A program made the position numbers and the translations under genes. This document shows, one piece after another, positions 12,397 through 42,618 of a DNA stretch of 42,618 nt (positions are counted from its first letter, which is position 1; each line of letters opens with the position of its first letter). Origin of the DNA: Streptomyces sp. 8L (GTDB lineage Bacteria; Actinomycetota; Actinomycetes; Streptomycetales; Streptomycetaceae); assembly GCF_020176795.1 (NCBI RefSeq), contig NZ_JAIUKE010000043.1, forward strand, positions 1 through 42,618. Direction: 5' to 3'. Under the pieces are notes generated by a model. It searched no databases, was not told the DNA's origin, and saw only the letters and a program-made list of their open reading frames with translations.

Positions 12397-12469
12397 TACC
12401 CCCGACCGGATTCGAACCGGCGCTACCGCCTTGAGAGGGCGGCGTGCTAGGCCGCTACACAACGGGGGC
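12397..12469 (-). tRNA. tRNA-Glu (anticodon CTC), copy 1
   Basis: The 73-nt gene has a 7-bp acceptor stem (GCCCCCG with CGGGGGT), an anticodon loop CTCTCAA giving CTC, and a T-arm GCCGG-TTCGAAT-CCGGT. CCA is not encoded. It is identical to copy 3. It is last in the transcript order Gln-Glu-Glu-Gln-Glu. Confidence 0.95.
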
Positions 12470-12483
12470 CTGATCGTGCGAAG

Positions 12484-12555
12484 CTGGGCTACCAGGACTC
12501 GAACCTAGACTAAATGAACCAGAATCACTCGTGCTGCCAATTACACCATAGCCCA
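12484..12555 (-). tRNA. tRNA-Gln (anticodon CTG), variant copy
   Basis: The 72-nt gene has acceptor TGGGCTA/TAGCCCA and anticodon loop TTCTGGT. It differs from the other Gln copy in the anticodon stem, where AGTGA/TCATT replaces ACTGA/TCAGT. A C-G pair has thus become a G-U wobble through two base changes. CCA is not encoded. Confidence 0.93.
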
Positions 12556-12568
12556 TGGTATAGACCAG

Positions 12569-12641
12569 TAGCCCCGACCGGATTCGAACCGGCGCTACCG
12601 CCTTGAGAGGGCGGCGTGCTAGGCCGCTACACAACGGGGCC
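12569..12641 (-). tRNA. tRNA-Glu (anticodon CTC), copy 2
   Basis: The 73-nt gene has the same body as the other Glu copies. The acceptor stem is GGCCCCG/CGGGGCT, so the second pair is G-C where copies 1 and 3 have C-G. The compensated change shows the stem is maintained. Confidence 0.95.
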
Positions 12642-12669
12642 CCAGCGATCTCCCCACGAGGAAGATCCG

Positions 12670-12742
12670 TACCCCCGACCGGATTCGAACCGGCGCTACC
12701 GCCTTGAGAGGGCGGCGTGCTAGGCCGCTACACAACGGGGGC
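12670..12742 (-). tRNA. tRNA-Glu (anticodon CTC), copy 3
   Basis: The 73-nt gene is identical in sequence to copy 1 (12397-12469), with anticodon loop CTCTCAA. CCA is not encoded. Confidence 0.95.
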
Positions 12743-12761
12743 GTTGCAGAGAACATCTGCG

Positions 12762-12833
12762 CTGGGCTACCAGGACTCGAACCTAGACTAACTGAACCAG
12801 AATCAGTCGTGCTGCCAATTACACCATAGCCCA
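12762..12833 (-). tRNA. tRNA-Gln (anticodon CTG), canonical copy
   Basis: The 72-nt gene has acceptor TGGGCTA/TAGCCCA and a fully Watson-Crick anticodon stem ACTGA/TCAGT around TTCTGGT. It is first in the five-gene tRNA transcript. Spacers between the genes are only 13-28 nt, so they are surely co-transcribed and processed. Confidence 0.95.
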
Positions 12834-34981: not shown

Positions 34982-35017
34982 GCCGGTACCGCAACCGATT
35001 CCGGAACCGGTACCGGC
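34982..35017. promoter_or_regulatory. 9-bp inverted repeat upstream of the LacI-type gene
   Basis: GCCGGTACC (34982-34990) and GGTACCGGC (35009-35017) are perfect complements, 18 bp apart. The right arm lies in the palindrome CCGGTACCGG. The spacer holds AACCGATTCC and GGAACC. It starts 38 bp before the regulator gene, so it may be an autoregulatory operator. Confidence 0.4.
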
Positions 35018-35147
35018 GCCGGACGGTGAGTCAACCGCGCGCCGGACGTGCCGTCAACACTTCACGCGGACATTGGTCCGCACCTTTGTTACAGAGCACG
35101 GGGGCCGCAGGTCAGGCCCGAAGAGGGCGCCCCACGCGTTCAGTTCC

Positions 35148-35191
35148 TGAAAACGGAACCCCTTGACGGATGTCCGGGGGCGCAGTTCACT
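35148..35191 (+). promoter_or_regulatory. Candidate GH30 promoter with adjacent LacI-type half-site
   Basis: TTGACG (35163-35168), a 17-bp spacer and TTCACT (35186-35191) could be the promoter. TGAAAACGG (35148-35156), flanked by GTTCC and GGAAC, resembles one half of a LacI/GalR operator directly upstream of the -35. Confidence 0.35.
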
Positions 35192-35246
35192 CTCGCCGCA
35201 CCCTGAATCGCTCCCCCACCTCAGTGTCGAGAAGGGCAGCCCCACC

Positions 35247-37112
35247 ATGCAGAAACCGACTGGCACAGGCCGCCGGCTGGCGAGCGTCGCGCTCGCCGGC
35301 GCGCTGGCCACCGCCGGCCTCACCGGCCTCGCCGCCACTTCGGCGCACGCCGCGAACGAGCAGGTGAACATCACGCTCACCAGCACGGACGACTCCGGCG
35401 GCCGCCATGTGACCCGGGGCCTCCAGCAGCAGACCCCGGTCGCCTTCCAGTCCGGGACGGGAGGCAGCGGCACCAACATCACCGTCGACGAGAACACCAA
35501 GTACCAGAAGTTCACCGGCGCGGGCGCGTCGTTCACGGACACCGCGGCGTACCTGATGAACAGCAGCGGCGCGCTGTCGCAGGCGACCAGGACCGACGTG
35601 ATGAACAAGCTGTTCTCGCCGACCTCCGGCATCGGCGTCAGCTTCCTGCGCAACCCGATGGGCGCCTCCGACCTGGCCCGCAACAGCTACACGTACGACG
35701 ACGGCGCGGCCGACCCGAGCCTGTCGCGGTTCTCGCTGGCGCACGACCAGACCGACGTCATCCCGCTGACCAAGCAGGCGAAGCAGCTCAACCCCGCGCT
35801 GACGGTGATGGCCTCGCCGTGGACCGCGCCGCCCTGGATGAAGGACAACAACAGCTACAACCAGGGCTGGCTCCAGTCCCAGTACTACGGCGCCTACGCC
35901 CAGTACTTCGTGAAGTACATCCAGGGCTACCAGGCCGCGGGCATCCCCGTCGACTACGTCTCTGAGCAGAACGAGCCGACGGTCGGCTCCGACTATCCGG
36001 GCATGAACTGGAACGGGTCGGGGCTGGCCTACTTCGCGAAGAACGACCTGCTGCCCGCGCTCCAGAACGCCGGGCTGAAGACCAAGGTCCTCGCGCTGGA
36101 CTGGAATCCGGACTCCTACCAGTCGTTCGCCGCGCCCAGCGTGGACGACGCCGCGATCCGCGACCACCCGAACTTCGGCGGCATCGCGTACCACGGCTAC
36201 ACGGGCAACATCGACGTGCAGACGCAGGTCCACAACCAGTACCCGGACGTGCCCGCGTTCGACACCGAGCACTCGGGCGGCACCTGGATCGGCAACCAGC
36301 AGAACGAGGACATGAACAACCTTGTCGACTACTTCCGCAACTGGGGGCAGAGCTGGGTGAAGTGGTCGCTCGCGGTGGACCAGAACATGGGCCCGCACAA
36401 CGGCGGTTGCGGCACCTGCACCGGCCTCGTCACCGTGCACGACGACGGCAGCGGCAAGGTCGACTACACCGTCGAGTACTACACGATGGGCCAGGTCACG
36501 AAGTTCGTGAAGCCGGGTGCGACGCGGATCGACTCGACCTCGTCCACCGCGCTGCCGAACGTGGCGTTCCAGAACCCGGACGGGTCCAAGGCGCTGGTGG
36601 CGTACAACGGTTCCGGTTCCGCGCAGCAGATACGCGTCAACTGGGGCGGCGAGAACTTCAGTTACTCGGTCCCGGCGAACACCTCGGCCACGTTCACCTG
36701 GTCGGGTGCCCAGGCGGGTGGTCCGTCCTCACAGACGGGCACCTTTCGGGGCCTCGCCGGCAAGTGCCTCGATGTGGCGGGTGCGAACAGCGCGAACGGC
36801 ACGGCCGTAGACCTCTACGACTGCAACGGCACCGCCGCCCAGCAGTGGTCCGTCGGCTCGGACGGCACGATCAAGGCGCTCGGCAAGTGCCTCGACGTGA
36901 ACGCGGCGTCGACGGCGAACGGGGCCAAGGTGCAGCTGTACGACTGCAACGGCACGGGGGCGCAGCAGTGGCGGGTCGAGGCAGCGGGCGACGTGGTCAA
37001 CACCGCGGCGAACAAGTGCCTCGACGTGACGGGCCAGTCCTCGGCGAACAGCACCCCGGTCCAGCTGTGGAGCTGCACCGGGACGGCCAACCAGAAGTGG
37101 ACGCTTTCATAG
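35247..37112 (+). CDS. Secreted GH30-family glycoside hydrolase with ricin-type (CBM13) lectin domain
   Basis: The protein has 621 residues. The signal peptide runs to SAHA-AN near residue 36. The GH30 catalytic domain (about 55-490) has the acid/base Glu243 in YVSEQNEPTVG and the nucleophile Glu341 in FDTEHSGGTW, with SPWTAPPWMK and VKWSLAVDQN. The C-terminal beta-trefoil (about 498-621) has three LAGKCLDV/LGKCLDV/NKCLDV repeats with QQW motifs. GH30 enzymes cleave beta-1,6-glucans, glucosylceramide or xylan; the exact substrate is not clear. A fungal-wall glucanase is a reasonable guess. The ATG at 35247 follows GAAGGG. Confidence 0.93.
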   Translation: MQKPTGTGRRLASVALAGALATAGLTGLAATSAHAANEQVNITLTSTDDSGGRHVTRGLQQQTPVAFQSGTGGSGTNITVDENTKYQKFTGAGASFTDTAAYLMNSSGALSQATRTDVMNKLFSPTSGIGVSFLRNPMGASDLARNSYTYDDGAADPSLSRFSLAHDQTDVIPLTKQAKQLNPALTVMASPWTAPPWMKDNNSYNQGWLQSQYYGAYAQYFVKYIQGYQAAGIPVDYVSEQNEPTVGSDYPGMNWNGSGLAYFAKNDLLPALQNAGLKTKVLALDWNPDSYQSFAAPSVDDAAIRDHPNFGGIAYHGYTGNIDVQTQVHNQYPDVPAFDTEHSGGTWIGNQQNEDMNNLVDYFRNWGQSWVKWSLAVDQNMGPHNGGCGTCTGLVTVHDDGSGKVDYTVEYYTMGQVTKFVKPGATRIDSTSSTALPNVAFQNPDGSKALVAYNGSGSAQQIRVNWGGENFSYSVPANTSATFTWSGAQAGGPSSQTGTFRGLAGKCLDVAGANSANGTAVDLYDCNGTAAQQWSVGSDGTIKALGKCLDVNAASTANGAKVQLYDCNGTGAQQWRVEAAGDVVNTAANKCLDVTGQSSANSTPVQLWSCTGTANQKWTLS

Positions 37113-37190
37113 CGGTCCGCGCGATCCGTGCGGCCCGCGCGATCCGTGCGGGCCGTATGGGCCGTATGGGCCGTACGTGCCGTGCGGTGG
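37113..37190. repeat. Short tandem repeats after the GH30 gene
   Basis: CCGCGCGATCCGTGCGG occurs twice (about 37117-37151 region), followed by 9-bp units CGTATGGGC repeated with decay. The tract runs directly into the G/C-only block. Confidence 0.6.
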
Positions 37191-37397
37191 CGCCCCCGGG
37201 CGGGGGGCCCGGGGGGGGGCCCCGGGGGGCCCGGGGGGGCGGGGGCCCCCCCGGGGGCCCCGGCCGGGGAGGACAGGGCGCGGCGCCCCCGGCCGGGTGC
37301 GCCCCGCGGCGCGCCCGCGGGCGGGGGGGGGGGGGGGGGGGGGCGGGGGCGGGGGCGCGGGGGGGGGCCCCCCCGGGGCCCGCCCCCCCCCCCCCCC
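37191..37397. other. Second internal G-run/C-run block, probable assembly artefact
   Basis: G runs follow readable sequence from the left and a C run precedes readable sequence on the right. The middle keeps a few mixed bases. The block lies between convergent genes (GH30 and cimA), like the first internal block. Contig adjacency across it is not proven. Nothing else is visible in 37398-37460. Confidence 0.75.
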
Positions 37398-37460
37398 GTC
37401 CGCGTGCCGCTCGGCGGCAATCGGCGCCCGCGGTGGCCCCTGGCCTGTCCGAACGTGAGG

Positions 37461-39080
37461 CTACGCCTCGGCCGGTTCGACCCCGGCGCGCAGCAGCCCG
37501 TAGGTGTACGCGTCGGCCAGCGCGTGCCAGGACGCGGCGATGACGTTCTCGCCGACGCCGACCGTCGACCAGTCGCCGCTGCCGTCGGAGGTGGTGATGA
37601 GCACGCGGGTGGTGGACTCGGTGCCCTGCTTCCCCTCCAGGATGCGGACCTTGTAGTCCACCAGCTGGAAGGAGGCGAGCGGCGGGTAGATGCGTTCGAG
37701 GCCCGCCCGCATGGCGAGGTCCAGCGCGTTGACCGGGCCGTTGCCCTCCCCGGTGGCCACGATCCGCTCGCCCTTGGCCCACAGCTTCACGGTGGCCTCG
37801 TTGGCGTGGCTGCCGTCGGGGCGGTCCTCGACGATGGCGCGCCAGGACTCGGTGCGGAAGTAGCTGACCGGGCGGCCCTCGGCCTCGGCGCGCAGCATCA
37901 GCTCGAACGACGCGTCGGCGGCCTCGTAGGTGTAGCCCTGGAGTTCACGCTCCTTGACGCGGGCGACGACACGGCCGACCAGGTCGCGGTCCCCGCTCAG
38001 GTCGAAGCCGAGCTCCTTGCCCTTGAGCTCGACGGAGGCGCGGCCCGCCATGTCGGAGACCAGCATGCGCATGGTGTTGCCGACGACCTCGGGGTCGATG
38101 TGCTGGTAGAGGTCCGGGTCGACCTTGATCGCGGAGGCGTGCAGGCCGCCCTTGTGGGCGAACGCGGAGACGCCGACGTAGGGCTGGTGGGTGGACGGCG
38201 CGAGGTTGACGACTTCGGCGATCGCGTGCGAGATCCGTGTCATCTCCGCGAGCGCGCCCGGGGGCAGCACCCGCCGGTCGTACTTGAGCTCCAGCGCGGC
38301 CACCACCGGGAACAGGTTGCAGTTGCCGACCCGCTCCCCGTACCCGTTCGCCGTGCACTGCACATGGGTCGCGCCCGCGTCGACGGCCGCGAAGGTGTTC
38401 GCCACCGCGCACCCCGAGTCGTCCTGCGTGTGGATGCCCAGGCGCGCGCCGGTGGCGGCGAGCACCTCTGTGACGACCGTGTGCACCTGTGCGGGCAGCA
38501 TCCCGCCGTTGGTGTCGCACAGCACGACCACGTCCGCGCCCGCGCCCGCCGCCGTACGCACCACCGACAGCGCGTAGTCGGGATTCGCCCGGTACCCGTC
38601 GAAGAAGTGCTCGCAGTCCACGAACACCCGCCGCCCCTGCTCCCGCAGGTAGGAGACGGTGTCCCGGATCATCTCCAGGTTCTCCTCCAGCGTGGTGCGC
38701 AACGCCAGCTCCACATGGCGGTCGTGGGACTTCGCCACCAGCGTCACCACCGGCGCGCCGGACTCCACCAGGCCCCTGACCTGGGGATCGCTCGCCGCGT
38801 CCCCGCCCGCCTTGCGGGTCGAGCCGAACGCCACCAGCTGCGCGTGCCGGAAGTCGATCTCCTTGCGGGCCCGCGCGAAGAACTCGGTGTCCCGCGGGTT
38901 GGCGCCCGGCCATCCGCCCTCGATGAACCCGACCCCGAACTCGTCCAGGTACCGGGCGATGGCCAGCTTGTCCGCCACCGTGAGGTTGATGCCCTCACGC
39001 TGCGCGCCGTCGCGCAGCGTCGTGTCGAAGACGTGGAAAGCGTCGGATCGGCCGTCGGGAGCCGTGGACTGGGTGGTCAT
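37461..39080 (-). CDS. cimA: Citramalate synthase CimA
   Basis: The protein has 539 residues. It condenses pyruvate and acetyl-CoA to citramalate, a threonine-independent route to 2-ketobutyrate and isoleucine. The HMGL-like TIM barrel starts with VFDTTLRDGAQREGINLT at residues 17-34. Metal ligands are in GIHTQDDSGCAVAN and CTANGYGERVGNCNL. The C-terminal LeuA-type regulatory domain (FQLVDYKVRILEG...VLITTSDGSGDWSTVGVGEN) binds the feedback amino acid. The size and GWPGANPRD motif favour CimA over LeuA. The ATG at 39080 follows AGGAG. A leader peptide and attenuator lie upstream. Confidence 0.92.
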   Translation of the reverse strand: MTTQSTAPDGRSDAFHVFDTTLRDGAQREGINLTVADKLAIARYLDEFGVGFIEGGWPGANPRDTEFFARARKEIDFRHAQLVAFGSTRKAGGDAASDPQVRGLVESGAPVVTLVAKSHDRHVELALRTTLEENLEMIRDTVSYLREQGRRVFVDCEHFFDGYRANPDYALSVVRTAAGAGADVVVLCDTNGGMLPAQVHTVVTEVLAATGARLGIHTQDDSGCAVANTFAAVDAGATHVQCTANGYGERVGNCNLFPVVAALELKYDRRVLPPGALAEMTRISHAIAEVVNLAPSTHQPYVGVSAFAHKGGLHASAIKVDPDLYQHIDPEVVGNTMRMLVSDMAGRASVELKGKELGFDLSGDRDLVGRVVARVKERELQGYTYEAADASFELMLRAEAEGRPVSYFRTESWRAIVEDRPDGSHANEATVKLWAKGERIVATGEGNGPVNALDLAMRAGLERIYPPLASFQLVDYKVRILEGKQGTESTTRVLITTSDGSGDWSTVGVGENVIAASWHALADAYTYGLLRAGVEPAEA

Positions 39081-39118
39081 ACGAGTTGCTCCTGTCAAGG
39101 GGGCGCGGGGCCGCCGGG

Positions 39119-39153
39119 AAAACGAAAAGACCCCTCGCGGATGCGAGAGGTCT
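39119..39153 (-). terminator. Attenuator terminator in the cimA leader
   Basis: On the reverse strand the arms 39153-39143 and 39138-39128 form an 11-bp stem with one G-U pair and an ATCC loop, then TTTTCGTTTT. It ends about 38 nt before the cimA start and 53 nt after the leader stop. A T-rich intrinsic terminator inside a leader is rare in this genome and fits attenuation. Confidence 0.75.
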
Positions 39154-39205
39154 GCGCGCGGGTCGTGGCACGAATGCCGCCGCGTACGTCAGGGGTACGG
39201 GACGG

Positions 39206-39241
39206 TCACTGTGGACCGGCGCGCCTGCTGCCAATAATCAT
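39206..39241 (-). CDS. Putative cimA leader peptide with two Ile codons
   Basis: The frame ATG-ATT-ATT then GGC AGC AGG CGC GCC GGT CCA CAG TGA encodes MIIGSRRAGPQ, 11 residues. ATT is a rare Ile codon in this very GC-rich genome, and two in a row would stall ribosomes when charged tRNA-Ile is low. A short hairpin (CGGTC/GACCG) spans the stop codon, then come the attenuator terminator and cimA. No Shine-Dalgarno is seen, so the leader could be leaderless. Confidence 0.6.
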   Translation of the reverse strand: MIIGSRRAGPQ

Positions 39242-39433
39242 GGCGAACGAGAGCACGCGCCGATTTTCGCACGGCTTGCCGTTCTGGGAAGCCCTGTCTC
39301 ACGATGCGGGCGCCGGGAGCGTCCGGCGGCGGCGTCAGCCTCCCGCCGGCCTACCGTCCCGTACGGCCCCGGCGCCGTCGCCGGCCGCCGGCCCGCGCCG
39401 GCCCCTCGGCCGCACGCGCGGGGCCAGTACCGG

Positions 39434-40513
39434 TCAGACGACCCGGTGCAGCCAGCCGTGCACGTCCTCGGCGGCGCCCGTCTGGATGTCGAGCAGCGCC
39501 TTGCGCAGGCGCATGGTGACCTCGCCGGGCGCGGGCACGGTCCAGTTCCCGGCCTTCGACTGGACCTCGCCGACCGGGGTGATCACGGCGGCCGTGCCGC
39601 AGCCGAAGACCTCGGTGAGCGAGCCGTCCGCGGCGGCCCTGCGCCAGTCCTCGACGGAGATGCGCTCCTCTGCGACCTCGTAGCCGAGGTCGGCCGCGAT
39701 CGTCAGGAGGGAGTCCCGCACGATGCCGGCGAGCAGGGAACCGGAGAAGGACGGGGTGACGACCCGGTCGCCGTAGACGAAGAACAGGTTGTTCGTGCCC
39801 ATCTCCTCGATCCACTTGCGCTCCACGCCGTCGAGCCAGACCACCTGGTCGCAGCCGTGCGCGGTGGCCTCGGCCTGCGCGAGCAGCGAGGACGCGTAGT
39901 TGCCTCCGGCCTTCGCCTCGCCGGTGCCGCCGGGCGCGGCGCGGACGTAGTCGTCGGAGATCCACACCGAGACGGGCCGCACGCCGCCGCTGAAGTAGGC
40001 GCCGGCCGGCGAGGCGATGACGAGGAAGAGGAACTCGTTCGCGGGGTGGACGCCCACGCCGACCTCGGTCGCGAACATGAAGGGCCGCAGGTAGAGGCTC
40101 TCCTCGCCGCTCGCGGGCACCCAGTCGACGTCCTGCTTGACGAGGGCGTCGCAGGCCTCGATGAACAGCTCCTCGGGCAGCTCGGGCATCGCCATGCGGC
40201 GGGCGGAGCGCTGGAAGCGGCGGGCGTTGGCCTCGGGGCGGAACGTGGCGACCGAGCCGTCCGCGTTCCGGTACGCCTTGAGCCCCTCGAAGATCGTCTG
40301 CGCGTAGTGCAGCGTCATGTTGGCGGGGTCGAGGGAGAGCGGCGCGTAGGGCACGAGCTGGGCGTCGTGCCAGCCGCGGCCCTCGGTCCAGCTGATCGTC
40401 ACCATGTGGTCGGTGAAGTGGCGGCCGAAGCCGGGGTTGGCCAGGATGCGCTCGCGGTCGGCGGCGGAAACCAGGTTCGACGAGGGCTTGAGCTCGATCG
40501 TGGGCGTGGTCAT
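39434..40513 (-). CDS. ilvE: Branched-chain amino acid aminotransferase IlvE
   Basis: The protein has 359 residues. It makes the last step of Ile, Leu and Val synthesis and the first of their breakdown, which supplies branched fatty acid starters in Streptomyces. Class IV PLP fold motifs are [31 protein letters not shown], the PLP-lysine segment [15 protein letters not shown], and [13 protein letters not shown]. The late [15 protein letters not shown] binds the cofactor phosphate. The ATG at 40513 follows AAGGA. Confidence 0.96.
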
Positions 40514-40760
40514 GAGTAATCGTCCTTCACCGGTTGTGTGGGTCGGACCGCGTCACACCCCTGGCTGTCCGCGGGGGCCTCTCGTTCCGGTCCTGTCGGG
40601 CTCACTGATCCGACCTGATCCGAACGAAAGGTCCTAGGACATCCGAGTACCCCTGTGGACAGCGGTCGCAGTGACGATTATCCCGCGTACGCGGCGCTGG
40701 TCGAGGGCGGGAGGGGCGTGAGTACGGCCACTGATGGGTGGTGCGCCCGGTGGCAGCACG
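40514..40760. other. ilvE upstream region with direct repeat and palindrome
   Basis: CTGATCCGA occurs twice (40605-40613 and 40615-40623), next to the perfect 10-bp palindrome GTCCTAGGAC (40631-40640). This pair lies about 90-130 bp before ilvE. No gene is present in the spacer. Confidence 0.5.
40631..40640. promoter_or_regulatory. Perfect GTCCTAGGAC palindrome upstream of ilvE
   Basis: The 10-bp palindrome contains CTAG, a tetranucleotide usually rare in bacterial genomes. It adjoins a tandem 9-bp repeat. It could be an operator for a dimeric regulator; none is assigned. Confidence 0.35.
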
Positions 40761-40797
40761 CGACAGCCGCCGGGCCATGTGCACCCGGCGGCTGTCG
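40761..40797 (-). terminator. 14-bp perfect hairpin downstream of leuB
   Basis: The arms 40761-40774 and 40784-40797 pair perfectly around a 9-nt loop. The hairpin starts 16 nt past the leuB stop and has no T-tract. It separates leuB from ilvE transcription. Confidence 0.8.
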
Positions 40798-40813
40798 TGA
40801 GGGGTCCGTCGGG

Positions 40814-41854
40814 TCAGCTCGCTACGCGTACCGCGAGCGCGTCGCCGATCTCGTCCGTGGTGCGGCTCGCCGCGCCGCGCTCCGCCAGGTCGGCCGTGAC
40901 GGCCTCCTCGACCCTGGCGGCTTCGGCGTCGAGGCCGAGGTGGCGCAGCAGCAGCGCCACCGAGAGGACGGTGGCCGTCGGGTCGGCCTTGCCCTGGCCC
41001 GCGATGTCCGGCGCGGAGCCGTGGACCGGCTCGAACATGGACGGGAAGGTGCGGTCCGGGTTGATGTTCGCGGACGCGGCGAGGCCGATGCCGCCGCTGA
41101 CGGCGGCGGCGAGGTCGGTCAGGATGTCGCCGAAGAGGTTGTCGGTGACGATGACGTCGAAGCGCTCGGGCTGGGTGACGAGGAAGATCGTCGCGGCGTC
41201 GACGTGCAGATAGTCCGTGGTGACCTCGGGGTACTCCTGGCCCACCCGGTCGAAGATGTTCTTCCACATGTGGCCCGCGTAGACGAGGACGTTGTTCTTG
41301 TGGACCAGCGTCAGCTTCTTGCGGGGGCGCGCCTTGGCCCGCTCGTAGGCGTCGCGGACGACGCGCTCCACGCCGTAGGCCGTGTTGAGGCTGACCTCGG
41401 TGGCCACCTCGGCGGGGGTGCCGGTGCGCAGCGAGCCGCCATTGCCCGTGTAGGGGCCCTCGGTGCCCTCGCGCACGACGACGAAGTCGATCGAGGGGGT
41501 GCCGGCGAGCGGCGTCCCGGTGTTCGGGAACAGGCGCGAGGGGCGCAGGTTCACGTAGTGGTCGAACGCGAACCGCAGCTTGAGCAGCAGCCCGCGCTCC
41601 AGGACGCCCGACGGCACGGACGGGTCGCCGATGGCGCCGAGCAGGATGGCGTCGTGGCCCTTGAGGGCCTCGAAATCCTCGTCCGGGAGGGTCTCCCCGG
41701 TGCGGTGCCAGCGGCCCGCCCCGAGGTCGTAGTGCTTGGTCTCCAGCTTCACATCCTGCGGGAGGACCGCCTCGAGGACCTTGAGGCCCTGAGCCACGAC
41801 TTCCTTGCCGATGCCATCACCGGGGATCACTGCGAGATCGATGCTGCGAGACAT
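40814..41854 (-). CDS. leuB: 3-isopropylmalate dehydrogenase LeuB
   Basis: The protein has 346 residues. It oxidises 3-isopropylmalate with NAD to the leucine 2-keto precursor. Motifs are [20 protein letters not shown] at residues 5-24, [39 protein letters not shown] and the NAD-binding [19 protein letters not shown]. The ATG at 41854 has no Shine-Dalgarno, and TAGGCT lies 6 nt upstream, so the mRNA is probably leaderless. Confidence 0.96.
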
Positions 41855-41860
41855 GGCCGC

Positions 41861-41866
41861 AGCCTA
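41861..41866 (-). promoter_or_regulatory. Candidate -10 element of a leaderless leuB promoter
   Basis: On the reverse strand TAGGCT lies exactly 6 nt before the leuB ATG. No ribosome binding site and no clear -35 are visible. Confidence 0.5.
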
Positions 41867-41991
41867 ACCCCCGTCCCAGGGGATGACATCGGCCGTCCAC
41901 ATGGCGGACCTCGCGGATGCCGTCCGGAGTCGCCCCGAGTCGCCGGGGAACGTCCGGGCCCCGGCGCCGAGCCGCTCCGGGCGGCCGGCGG

Positions 41992-42126
41992 TCAGTGGCC
42001 GGTGGAGCCGCCGTTGTCCCGGCGGTCGAGGGCGCGCTGAAGGGCGGCCGCCGCGTTCCTGCGGTCGGACTCGCCGGTACGGGGAGTGTGCCGGACACGG
42101 ATGCGACGGACGGTCGTCTCTGCCAT
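41992..42126 (-). CDS. Small basic hypothetical protein
   Basis: The protein has 44 residues and begins MAETTVRRIRVRHTPRTGES. A good AAGGAG lies 9 nt before the ATG at 42126, which is the main support. It is very basic, with an Ala-rich helix (RRNAAAALQRALDRRD) and a Gly/Ser end. I do not recognise a family. It is 137 nt upstream of leuB on the same strand; leuB has its own promoter-like element. Confidence 0.65.
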   Translation of the reverse strand: MAETTVRRIRVRHTPRTGESDRRNAAAALQRALDRRDNGGSTGH

Positions 42127-42531
42127 GGGAATCGACTCCTTCTGCCAGCTGGAGCCGCACTGCGGCGGGGCGCGGCGCGGCACGCGAGGGGGCCGGACAG
42201 GGGTGGGGGACGCACTCCGCAGGGGTCACCTGCCTCGGAGGGTCCGCATCCGCCGTTCGCTCGATGGAGCGGCATGCTCGGCACTTACCACGCTAAGGGA
42301 GCGGGTCCTCGCTGTCTGCATCATTACTCGGACGTCCTACTATCTGAGACGGACCGCACTCCCGAGGGTGAATCCGGTGCGCGCACGGCCGCGAGCGCGC
42401 GCAGTTCCCCGACGGGCACAGGGGGCAGCCGCTGCGGGAGGGGAACGCGGGACTCGCGGGCATGGCGGTGCGACAGACGCCGGCCGGCGGGCATGGCGGT
42501 GCGACAGACGGCGGCGGGCGGGCACAAGGCC
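42127..42531. other. Intergenic region at the right end
   Basis: No supportable gene is seen in these 405 bp. A less GC-rich patch at 42290-42350 with GGACGTCC and TAATGA-like sequence may hold the promoter of the small basic gene. A direct repeat lies near the end. Confidence 0.45.
42457..42510. repeat. 23-bp perfect direct repeat, period 31 bp
   Basis: The copies at 42457-42479 and 42488-42510 both contain GGGCATGGCGGTGCGACAG and are separated by 8 bp. No coding role is apparent. Confidence 0.7.
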
Positions 42532-42618
42532 GCCCCCCGCCGGGGGGGGGGGGGGGGGGGGGGGGCCGCGCGGGCGGGGGGGGGGGGGGGGGGGGGCCCC
42601 GGGGGGGGGGGCGGGGGG
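42532..42618. other. Terminal G-run block, probable artefact
   Basis: From about 42541 the sequence is almost only G with a few C. It mirrors the C-run that precedes readable sequence at the left window end. Confidence 0.8.

Follow-up and report, generated by a model that had tools for sequence, protein, structure and literature searches.

A conserved isoleucine-codon leader upstream of cimA in Streptomyces, a probable ribosome-mediated attenuator with two abutting hairpins

The window, a stretch of 42,618 nucleotides from Streptomyces sp. 8L, carries on its minus strand cimA (37461..39080, with the ATG at 39080), which encodes citramalate synthase (NCBIfam TIGR00977, 626.9 bits against a cut-off of 450) and is the gene that the leader described here would regulate. 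Upstream of cimA, on the same strand, lie in order a conserved CGCATCGTGAGAC box, the hexamer GAAAAT, a short open reading frame with two ATT codons, a helix termed P1, an 11-bp terminator and a T-rich tail. An earlier first-pass annotation had described the reading frame with its two ATT codons, the 11-bp terminator and then cimA, and all of these are present as it described them, on the minus strand. The helix that it placed between them, a small hairpin spanning the stop codon, is not the conserved one; that is the long-range helix P1, formed by GCGCGCCGGTC and GACCCGCGCGC, which abuts the terminator. The 5′ arm of P1, GCGCGCCGGTC (39214..39224), lies within the reading frame and is supported by the alignment fold and by covariation in 45 leaders. 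The loop of P1 (39165..39213) holds the stop codon and, in Streptomyces, a variable inner hairpin with compensatory changes between columns 54-56 and 82-85; in families other than Streptomycetaceae this loop is often much shorter. The 3′ arm, GACCCGCGCGC (39154..39164), is invariant in 79/79 aligned Streptomycetaceae rows and directly adjoins the terminator stem-loop AGACCTCTCGC-ATCC-GCGAGGGGTCT (39128..39153, 11 bp), which is supported by a terminator scan, the alignment fold and covariation. The stem-loop carries the tail TTTCGTTTTC; the T-rich tail TTTCGTTTT is placed at 39119..39127 from the sequence and the terminator scan.

The folding energy of the leader is -85 kcal/mol, which corresponds to a z-score of -4.5 relative to 200 shuffles. 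A consensus scan of positions 35000-42618, the part for which the first-pass remark on the rarity of T-tailed terminators in the window was examined, gave 3 terminator-like sites where 1.7 were expected, which alone is not decisive; the reality of the cimA terminator is settled by conservation. At the gathering threshold, Rfam returned only tRNAs over the whole window and no match to the leader, and a relaxed scan of 39050-39350 gave a single match at chance level, so that no covariance model, of the T-box or of any other Rfam family, matches the cimA leader. A tandem array of five tRNA genes lies on the minus strand at 12397-12833.

The leader open reading frame (39206..39256) probably begins with the GTG at 39256 and encodes MLSFAMIIGSRRAGPQ followed by a stop codon. 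The first-pass annotation had read the frame MIIGSRRAGPQ from ATG ATT ATT GGC to CAG TGA (39241-39206); its reading frame and Ile codons stand, while its start codon probably gives way to the conserved GTG, 15 nt further 5′. In an alignment of 81 rows, made up of the window and the 80 top-ranking cimA loci of a protein search, a start codon stands 18 nt 5′ of the first Ile codon in every row (GTG in 80, ATG in 1), and the codon at the previously proposed ATG is ATG in 63 rows, ACG in 17 and GTG in 1. The two putative regulatory Ile codons, ATT ATT, occupy 39233..39238. The first is ATT in 81/81 rows; the second is an Ile codon in 77/81 (ATT 60, ATC 17, ATG 3, ACC 1), and their distance to P1 is similar across families. 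The description of ATT as rare is justified, since all 43 Ile codons of cimA, ilvE and leuB in the window are ATC. The stop codon follows after 16 codons in 71/81 rows and after 18 codons in the other 10, where a single-base difference 3′ of the Ile codons shifts the frame, alters the end of the peptide and moves the stop two codons downstream. Ile-Ile is kept in nine of these ten frame-shifted rows, and the tenth (L021) has Ile-Met.

The hexamer GAAAAT (39263..39268), 6 nt 5′ of the GTG, resembles a -10 element: it has the A and the T of the pattern [TC]AnnnT and lacks the first [TC]. That pattern occurs 4-10 nt 5′ of an in-frame start in 146/181 leaders against 221/3320 control positions, a comparison in which each control contributed one position whereas a leader could offer more than one start. 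Among 181 Ile-type leaders, 119-125 have a hexamer of the form A...T exactly 6 nt 5′ of an in-frame start, and no other distance comes near this count. This spacing fits a leaderless mRNA, and the leader is probably transcribed from the GTG itself; several S. lividans leaders have been reported as leaderless (PMC8079986). Further upstream, about 40-52 nt 5′ of the leader start, the box CGCATCGTGAGAC (39296..39308) is a candidate regulator site, with TGAGAC in 78/81 rows and TGAGAT in 3/81. The form CGCATCNTGAGAC has one copy in the genome of Streptomyces sp. 8L. The cimA gene of S. coelicolor is presumably SCO5529. This locus is absent from the main text of the NdgR study (PMC4340878), and control by NdgR was rejected as an explanation of the box because CGCATCNTGAGAC differs from the NdgR motif published there.

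Following the lineage of the source genome, the family considered here is Streptomycetaceae and the class is Actinomycetes. A protein search gave 586 cimA relatives; the best 80 comprise 79 from Streptomyces and one from Actinacidiphila, and the leader reading frame, P1 and the terminator are present at all 80 loci, including one (L032) that the first search pattern had missed. The alignment of cimA leaders that the first-pass annotation had proposed as a check thus finds both the leader frame and the Ile codons conserved. An RNA model, R1, built from 79 of the 81 Streptomycetaceae leader sequences, matches 121/121 genomes of the family in 17/17 genera; among 40 of these sites that were read, 31 precede cimA and 9 precede a small gene.

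P1 and the terminator covary. Across 45 class leaders, 93.3% of the cells in the two helices are paired and double changes occur at 12 of the 21 pairs, with 76 double-change cells where shuffles gave 18 and slid versions 5-17. These 45 rows were drawn from 80 non-redundant elements (103 before filtering), with long-loop and a few short elements left out, and they include 6 elements that do not precede cimA. The four foot pairs of P1, GCGC with GCGC, are invariant in 45/45 rows, though the model that found the rows itself carried these letters. A consensus fold that covers the entire leader consists of P1 plus the terminator.

The two hairpins stand almost without a gap. In a search that looked no further than 6 nt and therefore favoured short spacers, the spacer between P1 and the terminator is 0-1 nt in 164/178 cimA, 20/22 ilvB, 7/8 leuS, 2/2 leuA, 2/3 small-gene and 0/2 ilvA-like leaders; the two small-gene spacers are 0 nt, and both ilvA-like spacers are 4 nt with the helix apparently misplaced by the script. 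Rows in which the script found no terminator were not counted (11/189 cimA, 6/28 ilvB, 7/15 leuS and 8/11 small-gene). When the sequence 5′ of the terminator is folded freely, P1 lies 0-1 nt from the terminator in 173/187 leaders. In 118/143 cimA rows P1 begins 7-11 nt past the first base of the last Ile, Leu or Val codon; the stop codon lies at -4 to +23 relative to the start of P1 in 123/143, the position of P1 being apparently misplaced by long inner helices in 18/143. With the reported ribosome occlusion of 26 nt (PMC13236596), a ribosome on the Ile codons would clear or just touch P1, and a ribosome at the stop codon would cover its 5′ arm.

Outside Streptomycetaceae, R1 matches 69/181 genomes of the class. 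The 69 sites read there precede cimA in 60 cases, ilvB in 4, leuA in 2, an ilvA-like gene in 1 and a small ACT-like gene in 2, with three or four class matches (including G252, G261 and G297) left out of the sites read; by a tally from the match tables, the 60 cimA cases are spread over 18 families. The reading frame in these genomes is about 8 codons long, typically of the form M-x(4-5)-I-I-x-stop (for example, MTYSLIIS, VAQALIIG and VALPLIIA), with the stop codon often just 5′ of P1. A second model, R2, matches 216/296 class genomes, including 28 of the genus Streptomyces. Since both models contain the letters of ATT ATT and GCGC, the class-wide conservation of those letters is partly circular. 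A check from the protein side used 30 class genomes that are all absent from the R1 match table, 15 of them with no R2 match; cimA was found in 19 of the 30, and a leader was visible by eye at 9 of these 19 genes. Among the 15 R2-negative genomes, 10 gave no cimA match and 5 had cimA with no visible leader. These counts indicate that the leader is widespread and not universal, and that R1 alone misses part of it.

The amino acid encoded in the leader matches the gene that follows. Leaders of cimA, the ilvA-like gene and the small ACT-like gene have Ile codons, those of leuS and leuA have Leu codons, and those of ilvB have Val, Leu and Ile codons. Ile-Ile is present in 172/189 cimA rows by our own count, and a run of two Ile, Leu or Val codons is missing from 13/189. 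A run of this kind, for example ILVL or LVV, is present in 28/28 ilvB leaders; at least two Leu codons are present in 15/15 leuS leaders, and Leu-Leu-Leu in both leuA leaders (L223 and L224). Because the script chose the frame with the longest Ile, Leu or Val run, the counts of runs are favoured by design, while the kind of residue is not. In a further 60 R2 sites, the gene downstream was ilvB in 24, cimA in 17, leuS in 15 and ilvA-like in 1; three second matches were set aside, two that by eye overlap tRNA-like sequence (L299 and L303) and one too short to name (L288). The identity of leuS rests on tblastn for 15/15 genes and also on NCBIfam for two. The genome of Streptomyces sp. 8L itself has three such leaders, those of cimA, ilvB (MRTRILVLGQRVG, L294) and leuS (MRAVRLLLSEPR, L295). 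Its ilvB leader peptide is one residue off the published S. lividans leader, and its leuS leader peptide is identical to LeuL2 of S. lividans (PMC8079986).

In one family of the class, f18, the sole R2 match precedes an ilvA-like gene in 12/12 genomes, and the leader has one or two Ile codons (11 sites read, and L214). No leader was visible at the cimA genes read in two f18 genomes (L319 and L321). The ilvA-like genes score 294 and 300 bits against the NCBIfam model of threonine ammonia-lyase, below its cut-off of 496. Threonine is the substrate of IlvA. The last codons of the f18 leaders (L214, L282 and L337-L348) are often Ile-Thr. The small gene, of about 75-114 codons, follows a leader with one to three Ile codons at nine Streptomycetaceae sites and two sites of a further family, f19. 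Pfam ACT models match four of five small proteins tested, every score being below the cut-off, and a profile built from nine of the proteins finds a plant acetolactate synthase small subunit with an E-value of 4.7e-5; the product is tentatively an ACT protein resembling the small subunit of acetohydroxyacid synthase (AHAS). In some genomes these sites (L143, L145, L147, L148, L150-L154, L193 and L208) form a second target of the leader.

The first-pass annotation had proposed an Ile-codon attenuator upstream of cimA, and the conserved leader (80/80 loci) and the match of codons to gene support this. Judged by sequence comparison, the cimA leader is very likely a ribosome-mediated transcription attenuator that would sense charged isoleucine tRNA through its Ile codons. 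Ribosome stalling, the direction of the response and the mode of action of P1 are what we infer from the arrangement. Transcription would begin at or near the GTG, a ribosome would translate the short leaderless reading frame, and its position would set whether RNA polymerase halts at the terminator. When Ile-tRNA is ample, the ribosome would reach the stop codon and cover the 5′ arm of P1; P1 would not form, the terminator would be active and cimA would be off. When Ile-tRNA is scarce, the ribosome would wait on the Ile codons, where the spacing just leaves P1 free, and P1 would form and cimA be transcribed. Since P1 does not appear to compete with the terminator for bases, the helix abutting the terminator would have to hinder its closure at the exit of the polymerase. 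This role of P1, as an antagonist of the terminator by position, has roughly an even chance of being correct; it is favoured because it gives the right direction of response with the geometry observed, and the report that tandem hairpins raise rather than lower termination (PMC8355165) counts against it.

The main rival to an antagonistic P1 keeps the same attenuator and has P1 help the terminator, the two acting as tandem hairpins. A ribosome on the second Ile codon would cover the GCGC base of P1 and weaken termination; a ribosome that has finished would leave, P1 would form and transcription would stop. Such an arrangement would be a better fit than an antagonist to the effect of tandem hairpins reported from M. 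smegmatis (PMC8355165), and, given the spacing, the edge of a ribosome paused on the second Ile codon would indeed fall at the base of P1, with the foot pairs invariant within the limit given above. However, a ribosome on the first Ile codon would clear P1 or barely touch it, and the position of the stop codon, at which a waiting ribosome would cover P1, would have no clear purpose. A helping P1 is thus considered rather doubtful, though the strongest of the alternatives.

A second alternative is an attenuator of the trp type whose real antiterminator was missed by folding, whether it involves pairing with the region of the reading frame, a tertiary contact, a protein or a kinetic intermediate. 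Mutually exclusive structures have been reported for ilvB1 of M. tuberculosis and ilvB-II of C. ulcerans (PMC13236596, PMC10272879). In equilibrium folding from the start of P1 to the end of the terminator, a span that excludes the reading-frame region and so leaves room for such a partner, the median probability of the terminator in 155 cimA leaders is 0.953 with P1 free and 0.952 with P1 masked, although 28 of the 155 fell below 0.8 in either state and four were zero, owing to the pair register in the script. In a register-free test of 90 cimA leaders outside the first 81, the mean terminator pairing was 0.957 for free and 0.951 for masked P1, and the pairing was likewise unchanged in 20 ilvB and 9 leuS or leuA leaders. 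In this test the 3′ arm of the terminator pairs upstream with a mean probability of at most 0.004. The covariation scan gave no third helix: the seven column pairs that no shuffle reached all belong to P1 or the terminator, and the 22 others in the list, which goes down to 1 of 200, form no stacked helix. The whole-leader consensus fold shows P1 and the terminator, and in 17/155 leaders the loop of P1 is 6 nt or less, which leaves no room for the loop partner that the ilvB-II model requires. P1 and the terminator thus coexist in folding, where a trp-type antiterminator would be mutually exclusive with the terminator, and a missed antiterminator is regarded as unlikely. Visual inspection suggested several antiterminators (GGTC paired to the second GACC, CGCG to the terminator loop, GACCC to GGGTC, and CTCTCG near the start to the 3′ arm of the terminator); each fits only some of the sequences, and they were rejected, with no support from folding or covariation. 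Because the defining antiterminator was sought by equilibrium folding from the start of P1 and by covariation and not found, the leader is described as working like an attenuator and is not filed as a classical one. That the leader is instead a constitutive terminator with a conserved RNA, a source of sRNA or a riboswitch in which the reading frame is incidental, is very improbable: the terminator sequence is kept beyond need, and the RNA is kept in the ten Streptomycetaceae rows whose frame changes, but the codons vary with the downstream gene, the leaderless start signature and the rare ATT codons are kept, and the Rfam scans gave no match beyond chance level.

The first-pass annotation had noted that such leaders exist for other actinobacterial amino acid genes, and those of ilvB, leuS, leuA and trp are indeed on record (PMC1262725, PMC8079986). 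Among the matches listed in a search of open-licence articles, supplements apart, no published cimA leader or attenuator appears, and we have found no earlier description of one. A close relative is the leader of ilvB(N)C (ilvL, MRTRILVLGKRVG, in S. lividans, ilvB-II in Corynebacterium and ilvB1 in M. tuberculosis), which also has a reading frame with Ile, Leu and Val codons and two hairpins, the second a T-tailed terminator, and whose hairpins abut in 20 of the 22 measured. Like ilvB-II, the cimA leader has an upstream reading frame with an in-frame start and stop, P1 and a terminator, P2. It differs in that it would sense Ile and precedes cimA rather than ilvB; its reading frame is shorter in genera other than Streptomyces, and its P1 loop is at times very short. 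Moreover, the ilvB-II antiterminator, in which the P1 loop pairs with the 3′ shoulder of the terminator, is not found in 90 cimA leaders, where the 3′ arm pairs upstream with a mean probability of 0.004. The leuS leader (LeuL2, MRAVRLLLSEPR, in S. lividans) has the same layout, with P1 0-1 nt from the terminator in 7/8, and differs in its Leu codons and in preceding a gene for an aminoacyl-tRNA synthetase. The LEU element before leuA (Seliverstov 2005) shares a leader peptide with codons for the end product and has been described as a pseudoknot in which the Leu codons pair with the Shine-Dalgarno box of leuA to form the base stem; the two leuA leaders found here (L223 and L224), unlike that element, have P1 and a T-tailed terminator. 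The trp-type attenuator shares with the cimA leader the end-product codons in a reading frame, an intrinsic terminator between that frame and the gene, and the role of ribosome position; no helix that would exclude the terminator was found in the cimA leader.

The evidence from relatives points both ways. In M. tuberculosis ilvB1, changing the LVVI codons to Ala gave low, drug-independent reporter expression (PMC13236596), and this homologous leader is a precedent that speaks for codon sensing in a relative. For the ilvB leader of S. coelicolor, codon changes were reported to have no effect (Craster 1999, via PMC1262725), which counts against a codon-sensing attenuator. A tentative proposal is that the leaders of cimA, ilvA-like, ilvB, leuS, leuA and AHAS-small-subunit-like genes form one actinobacterial family for branched-chain amino acids, in which antitermination would need no competing helix; the ribosome would expose or mask a hairpin abutting the terminator, and this hairpin would control the polymerase by its position alone. 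If there is no competing helix, the accepted picture of amino acid attenuation would not be complete across an entire bacterial class, and the null result with S. coelicolor ilvB would be worth testing again. The natural differences in codons between genes, together with f18, in which the leader stands before the ilvA-like gene and not before cimA, provide a ready-made test set. Through the cimA leader, the entry step into isoleucine synthesis would have an Ile control of its own in many actinobacteria, Streptomyces among them.

The distance between the terminator and cimA varies. In many of the 80 best loci (L001-L080), the gap is about 80-100 nt longer than in the window and contains, by eye, a recurring sequence similar to GTGGAGCCGGTCATTCCGGTAGACCGAGATCC or GATGATGGGGGCAAGTGGAGCC that is missing from the window. 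In these Streptomyces relatives, the extra stretch is possibly a second promoter or an RNA element.
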